Shown here one piece after another: positions 2,271 to 34,657 of a DNA stretch of 34,657 nt (within the stretch, counting starts at the first letter, position 1; each line of letters begins with the position of its first letter). The position numbers were made by a program, and so were the translations under genes. Origin of the DNA: a bacterium (lineage in GTDB: Bacteria > Bacillota_I > Bacilli_A > RF39 > UBA660); assembly GCA_030539175.1 (NCBI GenBank), contig JAUNSN010000010.1, forward strand, positions 1 to 34,657. The letters are read 5' to 3'. The notes beneath the pieces were generated by a model. That model was not told where the DNA came from. It saw nothing but the letters and a program-made list of their open reading frames with translations, and did no database searches.

Positions 2271-2625
2271 TAGTAAATATCTTGGGAATAAATATTGTGA
2301 GTCCAATAATAACTGAAGTAATAACCGTTATTAATACTGCCCCAGCAGCAATATCTTTAGCTAGTTTTGCTTTTGGGTTAATATTAGGCATAGCTAAATC
2401 AGTATTAAACTCTATTGCTGTGTTAACCATTTCTGTTGCTATAACCATTCCGAAACATAAGATACAAAGCAACCACTCATAAGTACTTATTTTATAAATA
2501 AATCCAGCAATTATAACTAAAACCATTACACTGTAATGTATCTTGATATTTTTTTCTGCTTTTAAGCAGGAATATATTCCTGCAAAAGCATGCTTAAAAC
2601 TATGAAGAAGATTCTTATTTTTCAT
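2266..2625 (-). CDS. dgkA: Diacylglycerol/undecaprenol kinase family protein
   Basis: A 119-residue small integral membrane kinase of the DgkA family. Gram-positive members mainly phosphorylate undecaprenol, supplying the lipid carrier for peptidoglycan, while some act on diacylglycerol. The sequence shows an amphipathic N-terminus with HAFAGIYSCLKAEKN, three membrane helices and the family signature EMVNTAIE followed by AKDIAAGAV. Length matches the Gram-positive family. The start is ATG 2625. A longer frame from GTG 2634 is possible, but on the minus strand the SD-like gggatgtgat overlaps that GTG. The gene converges with ctpA across a shared terminator. Confidence 0.92.
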   Translation of the reverse strand: MKNKNLLHSFKHAFAGIYSCLKAEKNIKIHYSVMVLVIIAGFIYKISTYEWLLCILCFGMVIATEMVNTAIEFNTDLAMPNINPKAKLAKDIAAGAVLITVITSVIIGLTIFIPKIFTI

Positions 2626-2891
2626 TACTATCACATCCCTTTATTAAAATAACTAACAACATTGTATCAAATTTCTAATGAAAAGTCTTTAAATATTATC
2701 AAAAATTATCAAAAAGAAAGTATTAGGAATAAAATAACTATGGGAAATAATAAAGTATTAGTTTAAAACCTAGAAAAGATCTTATCGGGATAATTTACTT
2801 ATTTATAATGTAGTAATGAATTATATTTATGTATACTTAGAAGTTAGATAAGGTTGTTAAATATAATTTAATTAGATTTGTAATATATTTC

Positions 2892-2920
2892 TTGCTAATT
2901 TAATAAAATGTTGCTATAAT
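2892..2920 (+). promoter_or_regulatory. SigA-type promoter for the 2971 gene
   Basis: TTGCTA at 2892-2897, a 17-base spacer, and a consensus TATAAT at 2915-2920, about 50 bases upstream of the next start codon. It lies in the 345-base gap between dgkA and this gene, which otherwise shows nothing recognisable. Confidence 0.75.
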
Positions 2921-2970
2921 TTGATTATCAATTTTAAACGGTTTATTTATTAAAAAGAAAGGTGATGGTA

Positions 2971-3489
2971 ATGAGTAATCAACTAGAGGAAGATTCTTTA
3001 CAACAAATTAAACAAGATTTTTTAAATAGTTATACTCAAGAAAATCAATTTGATGTTGTTTTAATAAAGTATAATCATATAACTAGAAAATTACTTGATA
3101 TTATATATTATTTTAGAAATAATATTAATTGTTCTATAGATGAATATTTTTCTAATTATTATTCTACTGATTTAGCACGATATTTATATCAGATGAATGA
3201 GTTAGAAAAATATATATTAAGAAAAAAAGAAAAGTTGTTTAACATAAAATTAAGAATGGGATACTCAGCTCATCAACTATTAATTAATAAAATAGAAGAA
3301 ATAATATCTTTGAAAGACGAAGAATTATCTAATATGAAAGAGTTTTATATTGTTTTACAAGAAGCTCAATCTTTATATCAGGAATATCAAGCTTTAAATA
3401 AATGTGGATTAAACCAATATCAAGTTTATCAGAATAATCGGGTAAAAAAGAAAAAAAAGATTAATAATTCTTTTAAAAAAAGAATATAA
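2971..3489 (+). CDS. Small helical cytoplasmic protein of unknown function
   Basis: A 172-residue protein with no signal peptide or membrane segment. It is rich in long amphipathic helices (ELEKYILRKKEKLFNIKL, LINKIEEIISLKDEELSNMK), probably coiled-coil, and ends in a strongly basic tail (VKKKKKINNSFKKRI) that could bind nucleic acid or membrane. The start is ATG 2971, behind aaaggtgat at 2958-2966. An upstream in-frame GTG/ATG pair falls inside that site and is rejected. It has its own promoter at 2892-2920. Its stop and that of the convergent ppa are separated by one base, with no clear terminator between them. I do not recognise the family. Confidence 0.75.
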   Translation: MSNQLEEDSLQQIKQDFLNSYTQENQFDVVLIKYNHITRKLLDIIYYFRNNINCSIDEYFSNYYSTDLARYLYQMNELEKYILRKKEKLFNIKLRMGYSAHQLLINKIEEIISLKDEELSNMKEFYIVLQEAQSLYQEYQALNKCGLNQYQVYQNNRVKKKKKINNSFKKRI

Positions 3490-3490
3490 A

Positions 3491-3991
3491 TCATTTTTTC
3501 TCATTTTCTTTATTATAGAACCTTTTATGACATTCTTCAATTAGTTTTATTGCCTCATCTCTTCCATGATAATCTTTTACAATAACTTCAATCTTTTGTA
3601 AAGTTTTATAGTTAGAAAAGAAATTAATTATTTCATCTTTAACAAAAGAAGATAAATCATCTAGTGTATTAATCTCATTATATCTAGGATCAACATCAAC
3701 AACAGAAATAAGTTTATAATCTTGATAACCATTATCAATAACTTCTAAATAACCAATGACTCTTGCTGGAACAACACAACCAGGAAAAGTGGGTTCTGAG
3801 CTAATTACTAATATATCTAAAGGATCACCATCAAGAGCTAAAGTATTAGCAATATAACCATATTCAGCTGGATAATTCATTGCTGAATATAATACTCTGT
3901 CTAATCTAATTTCGTTAGTTTTTTCACTAATTTCAAACTTATTTTTTGTCTTTAAAGGTATTTCTATAATTGCATCCACGACTGTTTTCAT
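3491..3991 (-). CDS. ppa: Inorganic pyrophosphatase (family I)
   Basis: A 166-residue soluble family I pyrophosphatase that hydrolyses pyrophosphate to phosphate with Mg2+, pulling forward tRNA charging and polymer synthesis. Visible family features are IEIPLKTKNKFEI at the N-terminus, DRVLYSAMNYPAEYGYIANTL, the metal-binding signature DGDPLDILV, and VVDVDPRYNEI. Length fits bacterial enzymes (about 165-180). The start ATG is preceded on the minus strand by ttggtgatatt, a ggtgat-type ribosome site. It is transcribed away from the AI-2E permease gene and converges on the 2971 gene. Confidence 0.95.
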   Translation of the reverse strand: MKTVVDAIIEIPLKTKNKFEISEKTNEIRLDRVLYSAMNYPAEYGYIANTLALDGDPLDILVISSEPTFPGCVVPARVIGYLEVIDNGYQDYKLISVVDVDPRYNEINTLDDLSSFVKDEIINFFSNYKTLQKIEVIVKDYHGRDEAIKLIEECHKRFYNKENEKK

Positions 3992-4065
3992 AATATCACC
4001 AAGATAAGCATAATTAAAAATTAATTATTAGTCAAGTATTTTTAAATAATTGATTAAAAATATGA

Positions 4066-4071
4066 TATAAT
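4066..4071 (+). promoter_or_regulatory. Probable -10 box for the permease-alaS operon
   Basis: TATAAT at 4066-4071 lies 24 bases before the start codon, in the divergent region between ppa and the permease. No convincing -35 box sits 17 bases upstream, so only the -10 is claimed. Confidence 0.5.
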
Positions 4072-4095
4072 CTTAACTGAGGATGTGATATATTT

Positions 4096-5298
4096 ATGTT
4101 TAATTTTCTTAAAAAGAATATTGATGATAAAAAAATAGATATGATAAGTTTAAATGAAATAATAAAACTAACTTGTGCGATTTTAAAAATAGGTTTAATT
4201 CTTGCTATTATTCTTACTATTTTAGTTGCATCACACTTATTACAAACATGGGGAATAATAATATTTATAAAAAGTATAATTAAAATTTTATCACCATTTT
4301 TTATTGGATTAATTATTGCTTGGTTATTAACACCAATAGTTAATTTTTTAAAAACTAAAAAGATTAATCGAATTCTTGGAGCAATTATGACATATACAGT
4401 ATTTTTAGTTGCTATATACTTAGTTATTTATTCAATTGTTCCTCTATTAATAAGAGAAATAAACGACTTTTTCTTAACAGTTCCTAAAGTGTTAACTAGT
4501 ATTTCTACCTTTATTGATAGTATCTTTGCTAATTTTGATTCAGCAGTATACAATGTTGATACGCTAAAGGTAGATTTATATAAGAGTATAGAAACTAGTG
4601 TTACTAACTATACTACTGCTTTACCTAATAATATTATTATTGTAACTAAACAACTATTTAGTTATATCTGGGTATTCTTAATTGGTCTTGTTATTGGTTT
4701 ATATCTTTTATTTGATTTTGATAAATCAGTTAATAATTTAGTTGGTTTTATACCTATAAAGATAAGAAATAATTATAAAGAAGTTGCTAAAAAAATAGAT
4801 GTATCATTAAAAAACTTTGTCTATGGAACTTTAATATTATCATCGATAATTTTCGTTGTATGTGCTTTAAGCTTTTGGATTGCTGGCTTATCTTCCCCAG
4901 TATTGTTTGCCTTATTTTGTGCTATAACTAACTTAATTCCTTATTTTGGTCCTTATATTGGAGCTATTCCAGCAGTTATTGTTGGTTATGCCACTGGGCC
5001 AGTTACTGGAACAATTGTCTTATTAGTTATTTGTGTCTTACAATTCTTTGAAGGAAATATTATTCATCCTTTAGTTATGAGTAAAACTATGAAGTTGCAC
5101 CCAGTAACCATAATAGTTGGTTTGTTAATATTTGGATATTTCTTTGGAATTGTTGGAATGATGTTTGCAACACCAATCATATCAATAATAAAAATATTTT
5201 GGCAATTTTTTAATAAAAAGTATAGCCTAGTTGATATGTATAGTGATAAAATAAATAGGAAAGGTAAAAAAGGTGTAGAAAATGGAAGTAAGTTATAG
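4096..5298 (+). CDS. AI-2E family transporter (PerM/YtvI-like)
   Basis: A 400-residue polytopic membrane protein with about seven or eight hydrophobic segments and the architecture of AI-2 exporter/PerM family permeases: paired N-terminal helices (about 25-50, 55-80), a long loop rich in Thr and Ser (about 125-180), then a conserved C-terminal block with AITNLIPYFGPYIGAIPAVIVG and FFEGNIIHPLVMSKTMKLHP. These motifs are family-typical. Substrates differ within the family (autoinducer, ions, polyamines), so none is assigned. RBS gaggatgtgat precedes the ATG. Its last 17 bases overlap the next gene, so it heads an operon with the dNMP-kinase-like gene and alaS. Confidence 0.9.
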   Translation: MFNFLKKNIDDKKIDMISLNEIIKLTCAILKIGLILAIILTILVASHLLQTWGIIIFIKSIIKILSPFFIGLIIAWLLTPIVNFLKTKKINRILGAIMTYTVFLVAIYLVIYSIVPLLIREINDFFLTVPKVLTSISTFIDSIFANFDSAVYNVDTLKVDLYKSIETSVTNYTTALPNNIIIVTKQLFSYIWVFLIGLVIGLYLLFDFDKSVNNLVGFIPIKIRNNYKEVAKKIDVSLKNFVYGTLILSSIIFVVCALSFWIAGLSSPVLFALFCAITNLIPYFGPYIGAIPAVIVGYATGPVTGTIVLLVICVLQFFEGNIIHPLVMSKTMKLHPVTIIVGLLIFGYFFGIVGMMFATPIISIIKIFWQFFNKKYSLVDMYSDKINRKGKKGVENGSKL

Positions 5299-28365: not shown

Positions 28366-28585
28366 GAAACAATATAAGCTTTATATTCTTTTCGTTAAAC
28401 TACTTAGATAATGAAACATATCCGTTAAAGTTGGCGTTTGCTGACAGTGAATAGATGTCAACGACGTTTACAATTGTTCGTGTAAAAACATCTCTTAAAA
28501 AATTTAATTCCATATTTTTTTAATTAAAATATTTAAGCTTCATTAAAGTTAATCATAACTAATATGATTAATTAAGGTGATAATT

Positions 28586-29680
28586 ATGTTTTTAAAAAAT
28601 ATTCATAAAAGAATCAAGATAATATTTTTAATAATTGTCTTTGGCTTTATCTTAATTATTGCCAAAGTCTTTTATATTCAAGTAATTGATTATAACAAAT
28701 TAAATGATTTAGCCAATGACTTGTGGAGCAGAAATCTCCCTATTGAAGCTGATAGAGGAAGAATATACGATAGTAGTAAAATGCTGTTAGCAGATAATTT
28801 AACTACCACTTCTTTAGTGTTAATACCCAACCAAATTACTAATAAAGAACAAGTGTCTAGTGATTTAGCTGAAATATTAAATGTAAGTGTCGAAGAAATG
28901 GAAAAACACGTCTATAAAAAAACATCTATTGAACGAGTTCATCCAGAAGGAAGAAGATTAAGTTTTGAAGTCGCCGATAAAATCGACAGTTTAAAACATG
29001 ATGGAGTATATTTGGTAAAAGAGTCAAAACGATATTATCCTTATGATACCATGTTATCACACGTTCTTGGATATGTTGGTATTGATAATCAAGGGCTTTC
29101 GGGACTAGAACTTCAATATAATGATTACTTAACTGGCGAAGGTGGAGCAATAAAATATTACTCTGATGCTAAAGGAGAAAGGCTTACTTTGTCAGAAGTG
29201 TATGAAAAACCACAAAACGGTATTGATATAATGCTCACTATTAATTATGATATACAGTCAGTAGTAGAAAGAGAATTAGATAATGTAGTTACTAAGTATA
29301 ATCCCGATAATGCTTTAGCCATTGCTATGAACCCCAATAATGGTGAAATTCTTGCCACGGCGTCAAGACCAACATTTGATTCTAATAACTATCAAAATTA
29401 TACTATTGAAGAAATTAGTCGAAATCTTCCTATTTGGGCGACATATGAACCAGGCTCGACATTTAAAATAATAACGCTTGCTTCCGCATTAGAAGAAAAA
29501 ATAGTTGACTTAGAAAAAGATACTTTTTATGATAGTGGTTCTATTAGTGTTGAGGGAGGAAGAATAAAATGTTGGAAAGCTGGTGGCCATGGGTTACAAA
29601 CTTTTTTACAAGTTGTAGAAAACTCCTGTAATCTTCCAGTCAATACAAGAACATTTTTAGATTTGTTGAAAACCCTTTAA
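28586..29680 (+). pseudogene. SpoVD/PBP2-type class B penicillin-binding protein, truncated
   Basis: 364 residues where about 580-650 are expected. N-terminal membrane helix (about 10-32), the class B motif RGRIYDSSKMLLADN, the PBP-dimer domain (SHVLGYVGIDNQGLSGLELQ) and the start of the transpeptidase domain with active-site serine S291 and K294 in PGSTFKI. The SxN motif S347-C348-N349 is reached (VVENSCN), then the frame becomes LPVNTRTFLDLLKTL and stops. The KTG motif and the rest are absent in all frames. RBS aaggtgat precedes ATG 28586. Homologues include SpoVD (spore cortex) and PBP2B/FtsI (septum). SpoVD is favoured because losing the septal enzyme should be lethal. The break near 29632 is probably the left edge of an insertion. 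Confidence 0.85.
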
Positions 29681-29703: not shown

Positions 29704-30568
29704 ATGGAAGTTCATACTTCAAATGTTTTTACTCATAAAGGAAAATATTACGAAACTTTCCTCACCGATGATACACCAAACACAACTTCGTATTTTACAT
29801 TTAATTATAAAAAAGAGAGGATGAGAATAAATAACAAAATGTATCATATAAACACTAATGATTATCAAAGTTTGACTGCCAACAAAATGATTCAAGTAAT
29901 AGAATATTATAATAGATTTGAAAAGTATATTTTAGATACAGATAAAAAGATAATAAGAAATTATTTGAAAAAAGGTATTGTGTTTAAATATAATAAAAGA
30001 ATTATAGAAGTTCTTATTAAAGAGAAAGAATTAACAATAGTATTTCTTAATATAGTAAAAAAATATGATTCTGATAATCTTGGTTATATTTAGAAAAAGT
30101 TATGAAAAACATGCTTTATCTTATGCAATCAATGTCAGTGATGAAAAAACTTTACAATATGCTATTATGCTTTTTAAAGCAGAATATGAATTATTAATTG
30201 ATCCTTTTAAAGATAATTTGGTTGTAGATTTACAAAATGAATTATCAAAAAGAATAAAAGGGATTAGTAGTTCTATTGTAAAGAAAAAACTTAATAAAGG
30301 TATTGTATTTAAAACAACGAGAAATTTTGTTATTTTAGAAAAAAGAAAATATGGCATTCGTGTAAGATTATCAAATGTTGAAGATAATGAAAATGTTTTA
30401 AAAGAAGTAGGTAGAGGTAGTTATGATCATTTATGTAAGTATTATAATGTAATTAATTATGCAGATATAGAAAAAATATTACCTTATGTTAGAGAAAGTT
30501 TTGAATTAACTAAATATAACATAAATGATGTCAAGTCAGGTATATATAAAATGTATGCTAATAAATAA
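29704..30568 (+). pseudogene. Tandem DUF5655-like protein, frameshifted
   Basis: Two overlapping frames make one protein. The first (29704-30093, MEVHTSNVFTHKGKYYETFL) holds a domain with RNYLKKGIVFKYNKRIIEVL and ends at TAG 30091. The second continues from about 30083 (FRKSYEKHALSYAINVSDEK) and holds a second domain with VKKKLNKGIVFKTTRNFVIL, RVRLSN and YDHLCKYYNVINYADIEKIL. Both halves follow the pattern of DUF5655-type domains, often found in predicted transport or restriction-linked proteins. Aligning the halves shows the first domain is only complete when the frame shifts by one base near 30085. RBS aaaaagg. A terminator follows. It could be a sequencing error. Confidence 0.65.
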
Positions 30569-30669: not shown

Positions 30670-31167
30670 ATGTTTATTATAGAAGAAATAAAAAAGAAAA
30701 CTATCAATTATAATTCAAATGAAATTGCTATATTTATTGATATGGACGGTGTTGTAGCGGATTATAGATTTGGAGAGGGAGATAATATAAAAAATAATAA
30801 GCCTGGTGTATATTTAAATAAAAGACCAATTAATACAACAATTAGTATTGTTAAAGAAATAAAACAAGAATTAAATTGTGAAATTTATATACTAAGTTCT
30901 TGCTTTTATAAAGAACAATCTATAGAAAAAAGCATGTGGATTGATAAGTATATGCCATTTATAAATGAAAAAAACAGGATTTTTACTATTGCTGATAACT
31001 TTGAATCAAGAAAAATGTTAAAAATTGATGCAATAAAATCAAAAATGATTTCTAATAAATTGAAAAAAGCTATATTTATTGACGATACTCATGATATATT
31101 GTTTTTAGCGATTAAAGAATTAGGTGATAAAATAATTCCATTTCATGTTATTACTTTATTAGATTAG
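30670..31167 (+). CDS. HAD-superfamily 5'(3')-nucleotidase-like phosphatase
   Basis: 165 residues. The HAD motif I IFIDMDGVVADY (about 21-32) has nucleophile D24 and acid/base D26, and the DMDGVVAD form is typical of NT5C-type 5'(3')-deoxyribonucleotidases. Motif II is the serine in IYILSSC (about 73-79). Motif III/IV is AIFIDDTHDIL (about 134-144), with a preceding lysine. It has no signal peptide. In this family the substrate is a nucleoside monophosphate, which fits the adjacent kinase-like gene at 34110. RBS ggaggt precedes ATG 30670. The radical SAM gene follows after 14 bases. Confidence 0.8.
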   Translation: MFIIEEIKKKTINYNSNEIAIFIDMDGVVADYRFGEGDNIKNNKPGVYLNKRPINTTISIVKEIKQELNCEIYILSSCFYKEQSIEKSMWIDKYMPFINEKNRIFTIADNFESRKMLKIDAIKSKMISNKLKKAIFIDDTHDILFLAIKELGDKIIPFHVITLLD

Positions 31168-31181
31168 GGAGGTGTATAAAA

Positions 31182-32687
31182 ATGTATGATGTTATTGTTG
31201 GTTGCTATACTGATGAGCCATCTGGATTGGGTGTTCCACCATATTTAAGTGTTCATTCAAGATATATTGCCGGTGCATTAAAAATTAAAAATATTAAATA
31301 TTATTATTTGAATATAGATGATCTAAGATTTGCTAATGGAGAAATAGATGCAAAAGATACTTACAATAAAAGGATTATAAATAGAACTAAAAATTGTAAT
31401 AATGTCAAAAAAATTCTTCAAAATGCAACAAATATTTATGTAGTAATGGGGTGTTTTGTAAAATATGAATATGTTTCAGCTGAGCCACCAAGCTTTTTAG
31501 AAGTAGAAAAACTATTAAATTGCTTTTCCAATATCCAAACAAATAAAGTATTATTTTATTCTTTGGGTGGTAATGAATTGACAAGAGAAAATGTCAGAAA
31601 AACTGTTCCTAATAATTTGTTTAATGAAATTGTTTTTGGAAATACATATAATTATTTTCTTAAAGAAACTAAGAATTTCTTTCAACCAAACTATGATAAA
31701 TTAAGAGAAATATCAATTGCATCTTCCTCAATGTTAGAACAATTAAAAAGACCTCTTGTAATTGAAATAGAAACAGCAACAGGATGTAATAGAAAACCAG
31801 GATGTACTTTTTGTATTGAAGGAATGAGAGGGTTACCTTTACAATTTAGACCTGTTGAAGACATAGTGAACGAAATAAAAAGTTTATATGATGCCGGGGC
31901 TTTATATTTTAGACTTGGTAGACAACCTAACTTTTATGCGTATATGGATTGTAATCCTGATAAGATAGAAACTTTATTTAAAAGGATATGGCAAGAGTGT
32001 CCAAATATTAAAACACTTCATATAGATAATGTTAGTCCTCATAATGTTAATACTCCTGAGGGAAAGAAAATTACTAAAATTGTTGCAAAATATACTACAG
32101 CAGGAAATATCACACCATTTGGTATTGAATCTTTTGATCCTGTTATAAGAGAAAAATGTAATTTAAATGGTTCTATTGAAGATATTCATAAATCTATAGA
32201 AATTATAAACAAATATGGACAACAAAGAGGGGAAAATGGGTTACCAAAGCTATTACCAGGAATTAATATAATTTATGGATTAGATGGGCAAACAAATAAA
32301 ACTTTAGATTATAATTTGAAAAACTTAAAAAAAATATTAGATTCTGGAAATTGGGTAAGAAGAGTTTTTGTAAGAAAACTAACTTCACCTTATGGTGAAC
32401 AGTTTGATAAATATACAGAAGAAGAACTAAATGAATTTTTATATTGGAGTAAGACAATTGAAAAAGAATTTATTATTCCAATGTTAAAAGAAGTATTCCC
32501 TATAGGATTGGAAATAAGTGAACTTAGAATGGAAATGTATAAAGATGGTAATTCTATTTTAAGACAAATGGGTACTTGTCCAGTTCGTGTGATTATTGAA
32601 AATAAAAAATTAAAGCTTGATGAATTTTATAAAGTGAAAGTTGTAGGTCATATAGGAAATAGAACTATTATAGGTGAATTGATATGA
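31182..32687 (+). CDS. Radical SAM enzyme resembling COG1031 (archaeal-type)
   Basis: 501 residues. The N-terminal domain (about 1-190: YDVIVGCYTDEPSGLGVPPYLSVHSRYIAGAL) looks like the conserved opening of COG1031 proteins, known mostly from archaea. The radical SAM core starts with IEIETATGCNRKPGCTFC, where C201, C207 and C210 (C-x5-C-x2-C) bind the 4Fe-4S cluster. This spacing is wider than the classic C-x3-C-x2-C and is that of the archaeal relatives. Later blocks are FRLGRQPNFYAYM, LHIDNVSPHNVNTPEG, PFGIESFDPVIREK, LLPGINIIYGLDGQTN and RRVFVRKLTSPYG. Its reaction is unknown. The stop overlaps the next gene by four bases. RBS gggaggtg. Confidence 0.85.
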   Translation: MYDVIVGCYTDEPSGLGVPPYLSVHSRYIAGALKIKNIKYYYLNIDDLRFANGEIDAKDTYNKRIINRTKNCNNVKKILQNATNIYVVMGCFVKYEYVSAEPPSFLEVEKLLNCFSNIQTNKVLFYSLGGNELTRENVRKTVPNNLFNEIVFGNTYNYFLKETKNFFQPNYDKLREISIASSSMLEQLKRPLVIEIETATGCNRKPGCTFCIEGMRGLPLQFRPVEDIVNEIKSLYDAGALYFRLGRQPNFYAYMDCNPDKIETLFKRIWQECPNIKTLHIDNVSPHNVNTPEGKKITKIVAKYTTAGNITPFGIESFDPVIREKCNLNGSIEDIHKSIEIINKYGQQRGENGLPKLLPGINIIYGLDGQTNKTLDYNLKNLKKILDSGNWVRRVFVRKLTSPYGEQFDKYTEEELNEFLYWSKTIEKEFIIPMLKEVFPIGLEISELRMEMYKDGNSILRQMGTCPVRVIIENKKLKLDEFYKVKVVGHIGNRTIIGELI

Positions 32688-33337
32688 AAAAAATAGGACT
32701 TCTTATTCCTAAAACAAATTTAACTGTAGAATATGAATTGCAATATTTATTTAATAAGGGATTTTATGATTATAACAATATTTGTTTTTATGTTGCTAAA
32801 CTAGATTATAAAACAAGCTATAAAGATAACAAAGAACAGTTTTTAAAAGACTTAGCAAATGATGTTGAACAAAAAATAGAAGATTTAAAGTATTTAAATG
32901 TAGATTCCTTTGCATTTTTTTGTACATCATCAGCAATAAAAAATGAGAAAGTCAGTAAATATTTAACTCCTGCAGAAACGATTATTAAAGTTTCAAAAGA
33001 TAAAAATATTAAAAATTGTTTGCTTATAACTCCTTATAATGATAAAATAGGGCACGATGTTGCAAATTATTTAATGAATAATAATATTGTTGTAAAGAAA
33101 GAAATTAATTTAGATTTATTACATACAAAAGATTATTTCGAATATGGTAAAAATAAATTAGAAAAATTGATTGTTGAAAATTACAAAGATGAATATGAAA
33201 ATGTAATAATTTCCTGTACTAATCTGCCAACATTAGAAGCGATTGAATCAATAAAGAAAAAAATTAATATTAATATTGTGTCTAGCAATTCAAGTATGTT
33301 TGAAATTATAAAAGAAATTGGAGGCAACAATGACTAA
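32684..33337 (+). CDS. Asp/Glu racemase or maleate-isomerase-type enzyme
   Basis: A 217-residue member of the two-cysteine Asp/Glu racemase superfamily, nearest in pattern to maleate cis-trans isomerase and arylmalonate decarboxylase. It begins KIGLLIPKTNLTVEYEL (typical IGxxIPxxNxxxE). C80 in AFFCTSSA and C178 in IISCTNLPT occupy the two catalytic cysteine positions, so it should be able to carry out proton transfer at an alpha-carbon. The start lies in the radical SAM stop (ATGA at 32684-32687), indicating coupled translation. It probably acts on an intermediate made or used by that enzyme. The substrate is unknown. Confidence 0.78.
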   Translation: MKKIGLLIPKTNLTVEYELQYLFNKGFYDYNNICFYVAKLDYKTSYKDNKEQFLKDLANDVEQKIEDLKYLNVDSFAFFCTSSAIKNEKVSKYLTPAETIIKVSKDKNIKNCLLITPYNDKIGHDVANYLMNNNIVVKKEINLDLLHTKDYFEYGKNKLEKLIVENYKDEYENVIISCTNLPTLEAIESIKKKININIVSSNSSMFEIIKEIGGNND

Positions 33338-34088
33338 AGAAGAGTTTAAAGAAGTTATTAGAATTTGTAGTAATCAAGATGAAGTAAGAGATGCTGTAAT
33401 AAAAAATCATGATAATAATTTATGGTGGCCTATAGAAATAGAAGATTATAGGAAACGTTTATTAATTGCTGGATTATCGACTCGTATTTCTTATAATATG
33501 ATAGAAAGTTATAAAAAAGTTATATCAGATATTAATAAATATTCTTATGAAGAACTAAAAGAAATGAAAGAAGAAGAATTAATAAATTTAATTAAAGCTC
33601 TAGGTTTATCAAATTCTAGATATAAATATATTAAATCTATGATTAACTTTATTGAAAATAATGAAAAAGAAATATTAACATTAAATAATGAAGATTTAAT
33701 TTCTTTAATTGCAAATAATGTTAGTGGGGCTTCTTACAAAGTAGCACAATGCTGTGTTTTATATATGAAAGGATATTATTGTGGAATAATGCCTGTTGAT
33801 AGTGGTATGAAAGATGTTGAATTACCTTGTTTAGGATTTGAAAAATATGGGTCAGCTATAGGACATGATATATTGCGAAAAGAATTAGAAAGATTAACTT
33901 ACGATAATAACATGGAGGATATAATAAAAAAAAATGGATATTCAAAATTAAATATTCCTGATTGTAATAATGCTACATGGTGGGTACATCTTGTATTAAT
34001 TTATTATAAAAGAAATTTTTGTAATAAACATAATTCAGAATGTCCGTTGAATAACTACATAAATACTAAAAGATTATGTAAAAAGTAA
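33330..34088 (+). CDS. HhH-GPD DNA-glycosylase-like protein
   Basis: 252 residues from ATG 33330 (RBS ggagg). The middle resembles the endonuclease III/HhH-GPD fold: LLIAGLSTRISYNMI, ELINLIKALGLSNSRYKYIK, then a hairpin LIANNVSGASYKVAQ with K137 at the endonuclease III lysine position, and IMPVDSGMKDVE with D157 at the catalytic aspartate. The hairpin glycines (GVGxKTA) are poorly kept. C-terminal cysteines C231, C238 and C250 with ECPL partly match an iron-sulfur loop, but the fourth position is missing. It may be a base-excision enzyme or a glycosylase-derived enzyme acting on nucleotides. It overlaps the isomerase gene by eight bases. Confidence 0.7.
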   Translation: MTKEEFKEVIRICSNQDEVRDAVIKNHDNNLWWPIEIEDYRKRLLIAGLSTRISYNMIESYKKVISDINKYSYEELKEMKEEELINLIKALGLSNSRYKYIKSMINFIENNEKEILTLNNEDLISLIANNVSGASYKVAQCCVLYMKGYYCGIMPVDSGMKDVELPCLGFEKYGSAIGHDILRKELERLTYDNNMEDIIKKNGYSKLNIPDCNNATWWVHLVLIYYKRNFCNKHNSECPLNNYINTKRLCKK

Positions 34089-34109
34089 CGATTTAAGGGG
34101 GAAATAAAA

Positions 34110-34610
34110 ATGTTAATTATTGAGGGGATTGATGGAGTTGGAAAAACCACTCTTGTTGAACTTTTTCAAAAAGATGGTATGAAAAAATTCCATTTTGATT
34201 ATGATGCCAAAAATATGGATTTATTTAGTAAATACTTAAAAATTTTATCATTAGATGGTTTGAATGACTTAGCATTGGATAGATCTTTTGTTAGCGAAAT
34301 GGTTTATGGTCCAGTTGTTAGAAACAAATGTAAATTATCGTTAGAACAATATATAGAATTGCTAAGACAATATAGTTTATGTGGTGCTTACATTATTTAT
34401 CTAATTGCTCCAAAAGAAGCATTGCTTGCCAGAAGAAAAGATGATCCTAATGATTTAAGAATTATAGAAGAGTATTATGATCAACTTTCTTTACAATATG
34501 ATAGAATAATGCAATTATCATCAAATTACATTGAAGTATTACAATTTGATACATTTAAAAATGATGAAAATCAAATACAGAAGCAAGTAAGGAAGTTGAT
34601 TAAAAAATGA
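34110..34610 (+). CDS. Thymidylate-kinase-like P-loop kinase
   Basis: 166 residues, shorter than Tmk (about 205-215). Walker A is GIDGVGKTTL (about 6-15) in MLIIEGIDGVGKTTLVELF. A DR-S motif (LALDRSFVSEMVYGPVV, about 50-66) matches the Tmk nucleoside-binding Asp-Arg. YLIAPKEALLARRKDDPND carries a LID-type Arg-Arg. Such short proteins occur as nucleoside or deoxynucleotide kinases in phages and accessory loci. RBS aaggggg precedes ATG 34110. The next gene overlaps its stop as ATGA. Confidence 0.8.
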   Translation: MLIIEGIDGVGKTTLVELFQKDGMKKFHFDYDAKNMDLFSKYLKILSLDGLNDLALDRSFVSEMVYGPVVRNKCKLSLEQYIELLRQYSLCGAYIIYLIAPKEALLARRKDDPNDLRIIEEYYDQLSLQYDRIMQLSSNYIEVLQFDTFKNDENQIQKQVRKLIKK

Positions 34611-34657
34611 TTGATTTATGTTTTGCTGGAAATTGCTCAAATGATACAATCATAAAG
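34607..34657 (+). CDS. Start of a further gene, cut by the window edge
   Basis: ATG 34607 overlaps the kinase stop (ATGA, 34607-34610). The 17 visible codons read MIDLCFAGNCSNDTIIK. This opening is compatible with a PfkB/ribokinase-type kinase (xIGNxxxDxI), but it is too short to assign. It continues the operon. Confidence 0.5.
   Translation, partial: MIDLCFAGNCSNDTIIK

Follow-up and report, generated by a model that had tools for sequence, protein, structure and literature searches.

Here, we describe a cassette of seven genes, most of them encoding predicted nucleotide-handling enzymes, that begins near the right-hand end of a 34,657-nt stretch of bacterial DNA (GTDB order RF39, family UBA660; contig JAUNSN010000010.1 of assembly GCA_030539175.1). 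This whole stretch, referred to below as the window, is the entire contig C47 of a 1.29-Mb genome that is 96% complete. Window positions 30670–34657 hold five complete genes and the start of a sixth, which the original prediction had described from sequence as a densely packed run. All five open reading frames (ORFs) were found open and correctly placed. The genes are as follows:

30670–31167, + strand: gene 1 (HAD), a 5′-nucleotidase-like phosphatase of the NT5C type (PF06941, 27.5 bits against a cut-off of 24.8)
31182–32687, + strand: gene 2 (rSAM), a radical SAM enzyme with a CX5CX2C motif (PF04055 above cut-off)
32684–33337, + strand: gene 3 (ISO), a member of the maleate cis-trans isomerase/Asp-Glu racemase superfamily (PDB 4fq7, E=2.7e-15)
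33330–34088, + strand: gene 4 (HhH), a protein with the HhH-GPD DNA-glycosylase fold (AlphaFold and Foldseek)
34110–34610, + strand: gene 5 (KIN), a P-loop (deoxy)nucleoside/nucleotide kinase-like protein (PF01712 above cut-off)
34607–34657, + strand: start of gene 6, a PfkB-family kinase fused to a P-loop kinase domain, ~530 amino acids (remainder at G000:C25:2-1555)

Overlaps of a few bases and short gaps join these genes. HAD is followed by rSAM after a 14-base gap and HhH by KIN after 21 bases; rSAM and ISO overlap by 4 bases, ISO and HhH by 8, and KIN and gene 6 by 4. The ISO/HhH overlap is counted with the HhH start at ATG 33330, which has GGAGG just 5′ of it and is preferred over the mechanically assigned TTG at 33318. 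Gene 6 is truncated by the end of the window, but its start is real, as its continuation is found from base 2 onwards on contig C25, which belongs to the same genome (G000) and overlaps with the last bases of C47 by 16 bases. Downstream of gene 6 on C25 lies a seventh gene for a MazG-like protein (C25:1491–1814). The full cassette thus reads HAD nucleotidase, rSAM, maleate isomerase-like ISO, HhH, dTMP kinase/dNK-like KIN, PfkB and P-loop fusion, and MazG. The single promoter that had been proposed for the run found no support, as the region contains 34 promoter-like matches against 45 ± 6.5 in shuffled sequence, i.e. no excess.

The families proposed earlier for these genes were confirmed, with the NT5C, Radical_SAM, Amdase/EutA/maleate isomerase and dNK models matching above cut-off and the HhH-GPD model (PF00730) just under it, the latter call being supported by AlphaFold and Foldseek. 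The catalytic motifs of the cassette enzymes are intact. HAD carries an intact DMDGVVAD motif that is kept in the 11 homologues checked. The CX5CX2C cysteines of rSAM are invariant in all cassette rows of both the Bacilli lineage and the Streptomyces lineage introduced below. Its AlphaFold model (pLDDT 58) is too poor for structure comparison. The archaeal connection suggested for this enzyme (COG1031, in the original prediction) was borne out by Natronorubrum WP_006067939, a full-length relative with ~30% identity by tblastn. In contrast to the cassette enzymes, this protein occurs without a cassette, ends in an HhH domain and carries the canonical CX3CX2C motif. Among solved structures, ISO is most closely related to maleate isomerases, and it retains the two cysteines and the Asn conserved in the maleate cis-trans isomerase/EutA/arylmalonate decarboxylase superfamily: the catalytic-type cysteines C80 and C178 are invariant in 9 of 9 rows, Streptomyces included, as is N12.

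The HhH protein was compared by structure, as the original prediction had suggested. Its AlphaFold model (pLDDT 82.7) has MagIII, EndoIII, OGG1 and MutY as top Foldseek matches (probability ~1.0, TM 0.4–0.5, E ~0.02), and an amino acid:DNA transferase (AADT) in the viral Foldseek list reached a probability of 0.23. HhH shares with EndoIII/MagIII the fold and the Lys/Asp positions, as K137 and D157 fall at EndoIII K120 and D138 in a forced-global hhalign alignment with a weak score; the local alignment with E. coli Nth gave too weak a match. It differs from them in its marginal sequence matches and in its hairpin, which reads GASYK in place of GVGRK, and keeps the EndoIII-type Fe-S cysteines only in part. 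Its invariant motifs are GAS-K and PVDSG. In the collections searched, members of this family turned up only in such cassettes.

The remaining three products are predicted kinases and a pyrophosphohydrolase-type MazG protein. KIN combines a dTMP kinase-type P-loop with a dNK-like DRS motif, matches phrog_761 thymidylate kinase (2e-14) and has YorR of SPbeta (PDB 2axp) as its nearest solved structure. Its best PADLOC match, at a weak 25–29 bits, is in both lineages VakA, which we take to be a viperin-associated kinase. Across complete loci, gene 6 encodes 516–537 amino acids, with the GAGD[ST] motif of PfkB kinases and a GNSC[AS]GKTT motif, and the MazG-like protein has ~100 amino acids. The latter matches PF12643 and PF03819 above cut-off and, both in the homologues checked and in the copy of the window's genome, retains the ExxE ... 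ExxD metal-binding motif, here as E-x-x-EA ... EELAD.

Relatives of the rSAM protein were searched at the species level, with one genome per species (~85,000). This search revealed 14 further contigs or genomes that code for rSAM relatives with 75–82% identity. All seven genes are present in one fixed order in 12 of them, the other two being interrupted by contig ends. The possibility that the genes never occur together elsewhere, which would have spoken against the original prediction, thereby falls away: they are a true unit. Since the flanking genes vary between loci and nothing outside the cassette is constant, this unit consists of the seven genes. The bearers are gut and rumen bacteria (Bacilli) plus one unrelated, ultra-small bacterium (a Candidatus Dojkabacteria genome), and their distribution is patchy, with 7 bearers among 385 genomes of the order, one among 392 drawn from the phylum and one among 287 in the other phylum. 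More diverged bacterial copies were absent from ~390 Bacillota and 287 Patescibacteria genomes. The Dojkabacteria copy sits within a 143-kb contig and has 26.9% G+C, against 34.5% in its flanks, and its rSAM nests among the rumen-type Bacilli copies (support 96/99). From this nesting and the lower G+C content, the Dojkabacteria cassette was clearly acquired horizontally.

The search extended to phages, which had also been proposed, came out differently. No cassette relative was found among 50,697 phage records (searched with the rSAM, HhH and gene 6 proteins) or 2.9 million viral contigs, the sole match on the viral side being one short 28% match to the PfkB half. A phage or viral origin was rejected on the basis of these protein searches and two viral contig scans. 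No paper on this gene combination was found in the open-access literature, and as far as could be checked there, the gene set is undescribed.

A diverged version of the cassette is carried by soil Streptomyces, on giant linear plasmids. In the three plasmids examined (a fourth is listed), the order is rSAM-ISO-HhH-PfkB-NDT-KIN-MazG, where NDT denotes a protein carrying a nucleoside 2-deoxyribosyltransferase domain (Nuc_deoxyrib_tr). Six families are common to the Bacilli cassette and this operon: rSAM (31% identity, 4e-80), HhH (38%, 6e-58), MazG (47%, 1e-31), KIN (29%, 1e-20), ISO (only 21%, 5e-19) and PfkB (21%, 6e-10). The Streptomyces operon lacks HAD and the second P-loop domain and has NDT in place of the nucleotidase and second kinase. 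One Streptomyces operon has, ~9.5 kb upstream and in opposite orientation, a gene for a VUT/queuosine-precursor transporter (L024 1-468), probably by coincidence.

Because most cassette families act on nucleotides or nucleobases, modified-nucleotide metabolism is a plausible best reading of the gene set. HAD, KIN, PfkB/P-loop, MazG and NDT belong to nucleotide- or nucleoside-handling families. The HhH fold handles base–sugar bonds, and the NT5C, dTMP kinase and EndoIII families favour pyrimidine deoxynucleotides. We tentatively propose, from these family memberships, that the seven genes form a transferable pathway for making or remodelling a modified (deoxy)nucleotide that stays in the cell, probably from a pyrimidine. 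MazG would trim a nucleoside triphosphate to the monophosphate, and the HAD nucleotidase (in Bacilli) or the NDT-like enzyme (in Streptomyces), together with HhH, would open the molecule at the phosphate and the base–sugar bond. The unusual chemistry, whether on the base or on an attached small acid, may fall to the rSAM enzyme and the two-cysteine ISO, and the PfkB, P-loop and dTMP kinase-like kinases would re-phosphorylate the product. Nucleotide handling had already been proposed from the first five genes, and this part gained support from gene 6, MazG and the Streptomyces NDT; a modified nucleotide as the product, which was part of the same proposal, continues to be a matter of interpretation.

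Several observations weigh against this pathway. Membership in these families is no proof of a nucleotide substrate, since sugars are also used by PfkB enzymes and small acids by the relatives of ISO. The VakA match is weak, and PADLOC, PHROGs and NCBIfam recognise no core gene as a system. A pooled PADLOC scan of 64 flanking proteins found no established defence system; its matches were mainly to candidate-defence models and possibly represent housekeeping proteins.

Among known systems, the cassette would work most like viperin (SAND) with CMPK2 or an associated kinase, including the prokaryotic viperins, where an rSAM enzyme is likewise paired with a nucleotide kinase and carriage is likewise patchy. 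The viperin product is a modified nucleoside triphosphate (PMC10732462). The cassette is not a viperin system, however, as gene 2 belongs to a different rSAM subfamily, with no PADLOC viperin/pVip match in either lineage, and is accompanied by five further enzymes, including MazG, the isomerase and HhH. By the logic of viperin and its nucleotide kinase, the modified nucleotide might confer a protective trait such as phage defence. This role is a guess by analogy, made because the cassette is mobile and patchily carried, because no gene for a transporter, a regulator or DNA sequence recognition travels with it, and because of the VakA match. Taken as a whole, the idea that a pathway moving horizontally among Bacilli, Dojkabacteria and Streptomyces uses radical chemistry to make a previously unknown modified pyrimidine nucleotide for phage defence seems to us rather unlikely.

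The same enzymes can be arranged into other pathways. In a sanitation or repair set, HhH would excise a modified or damaged base from DNA, MazG with HAD or NDT would clear it from the pool, rSAM and ISO would restore the base or break it down, and the kinases would salvage the rest, thereby protecting against a toxic nucleoside or phage-modified DNA. MazG, NT5C and deoxyribosyltransferase-like hydrolases are indeed house-cleaning families, HhH retains the Lys/Asp positions and hairpin of true base-excision glycosylases, and a pairing of rSAM with a DNA glycosylase-like domain exists (NCBIfam TIGR03916), although the archaeal relative matches it only weakly (E=0.037). Three separate kinase domains are nonetheless hard to reconcile with degradation alone, the hairpin has lost its second glycine (GVG to GAS) and the cassette has no exo- or endonuclease, which leaves this set a doubtful candidate. 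We are about as sceptical of a nucleotide-derived product, either a cofactor or a small molecule able to diffuse, made through phosphorylated intermediates in the style of nucleoside antibiotics. Clusters for such antibiotics combine rSAM, NDT-type hydrolases, kinases and phosphatases, and the location of the Streptomyces copies on giant linear plasmids would suit this origin. Against it, conserved genes for a transporter, resistance, a ligase or regulation are missing, nothing beyond the cassette is constant, and bearer genomes include sizes of 0.7–1.5 Mb, where secondary metabolism is rare.

Two further schemes have little in their favour. Hypermodification of thymidine in host DNA, as performed by phages M6, ViI and phi W-14, had been raised speculatively in the original prediction. 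P-loop kinases, glycosylase-fold proteins and rSAM enzymes are common to both gene sets, and AADT does appear in the viral Foldseek list of HhH. The phage sets (5-hydroxymethyldeoxyuridine (5hmdU) DNA kinase, aG/PT-PPlase or AADT, and rSAM) differ from the cassette in that no locus of the latter has, among the seven genes, a thymidylate synthase-like hydroxymethylase or another 5hmdU source, no Pfam match (E<=1) to 5hmdU kinase or AADT domains was found, KIN resembles nucleotide kinases, HhH is nearer to EndoIII/MagIII (probability 0.87 for a glycosylase against 0.23 for AADT in the viral Foldseek comparison) and viral relatives are absent from the phage and viral collections (PMC6449724, PMC9599517). 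We rejected the phage-type pathway on these grounds and give it hardly any credence. Salvage of queuosine or another 7-deazaguanine appears just as improbable. Here, rSAM would be the analogue of a queuine lyase and HhH a nucleosidase like Qng1, presumably also of glycosylase-like fold. Precedents are the radical SAM enzyme QueL, which converts queuine back to preQ1 (PMC10723273), and Qng1 as another characterised salvage hydrolase (PMC11130926). However, the cassette contains no queuosine gene, Qng1 is not among Foldseek's 50 listed PDB matches for HhH, and the route has no role for MazG or three kinases. TGT does not discriminate, being present in 10 of 11 genomes (not found in the cassette bearer G567) and in all 14 control genomes.

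In the window's genome, the cassette lies within the gene spoVD, and its left side comprises three further features:

29633–29640, + strand: attL, the left end of the integrative element, where the spoVD frame breaks (codons ..NSCN) and SpoVD homology stops at residue 352
29704–30093, + strand: accessory ORF D1 of the element, a partial match to the PADLOC candidate-defence model PDC-S18
30065–30568, + strand: accessory ORF D2, DUF5655-like (below the Pfam cut-off), a partial PDC-S18 match

SpoVD homology ends after the NSCN codons (~base 29633), and its next part (PGFVELG...) is found on C25 at ~3690, directly after the gene for a large serine recombinase that was identified by eye from its sequence. 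The gene, split at the conserved SCN motif, thus occupies window 28577–29680 and C25 (locus L035) 2301–3873, where the 3′ fragment ends early at FGQGI. Relatives are uninterrupted at this place, reading ..AACTCCTGTAA(T/C)CCAGGGTTTGT.. with NSCNPGF at the junction. As SpoVD is split on either side, the cassette, the two small ORFs and the recombinase together make up an element, ~8.7 kb long, that interrupts spoVD, and from its position we infer that the recombinase moved the cassette. An early in-frame TAA in its frame (L035 ~2070–2310) may have inactivated this copy, unless the stop is an error of the metagenome-assembled genome. The same spoVD site is occupied in genome G002 (L041), with a similar left end, and in locus L013 a recombinase with 68% identity adjoins a spoVD fragment; spoVD therefore appears to be a hot spot of integration in the family. 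The other cassette loci have no nearby recombinase of this type. D1 and D2 overlap, each matches the C-terminal part of PDC-S18, and they are possibly remnants of one larger gene; the cassettes of other genomes do not include D1. About 4 kb past the element lies an EF-G-like translational GTPase gene (L035 7476–9509), by eye similar to tetracycline ribosomal-protection proteins.

Other loci have neighbours of their own. Directly upstream of the cassette in L010 (2603–6992) are genes for a PnuC-type transporter, an NDT-like protein, a P-loop protein with GTDAVGKS, endonuclease V, two unknowns and Ham1 (ITPase), which by its predicted products is another nucleotide-handling neighbourhood. An HD-domain hydrolase gene comes next after the cassette in four loci (L010 13339–14022, L017 6980–7639, L018 13410–14069 and L020 13759–14526) and may be an optional eighth gene. 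The L017 and L018 proteins are nearly identical, and that of L020 is weakly YfbR-like. L013 encodes an ASCH domain fused to a cytidine deaminase-like domain (3715–4470), between the spoVD fragment and the cassette.

The conservation of gene order within one lineage, and of gene content across three phyla, in a compact set that joins an rSAM enzyme to nucleotide-processing enzymes, is a strong sign that the cassette makes one defined chemical product. The Streptomyces operons provide orthologues in a cultivable genus, so the pathway is open to direct testing. If its product is a modified nucleotide, it would join a short list of natural analogues, such as the products of viperins and the hypermodified bases, and may reveal new defence chemistry and enzymes.

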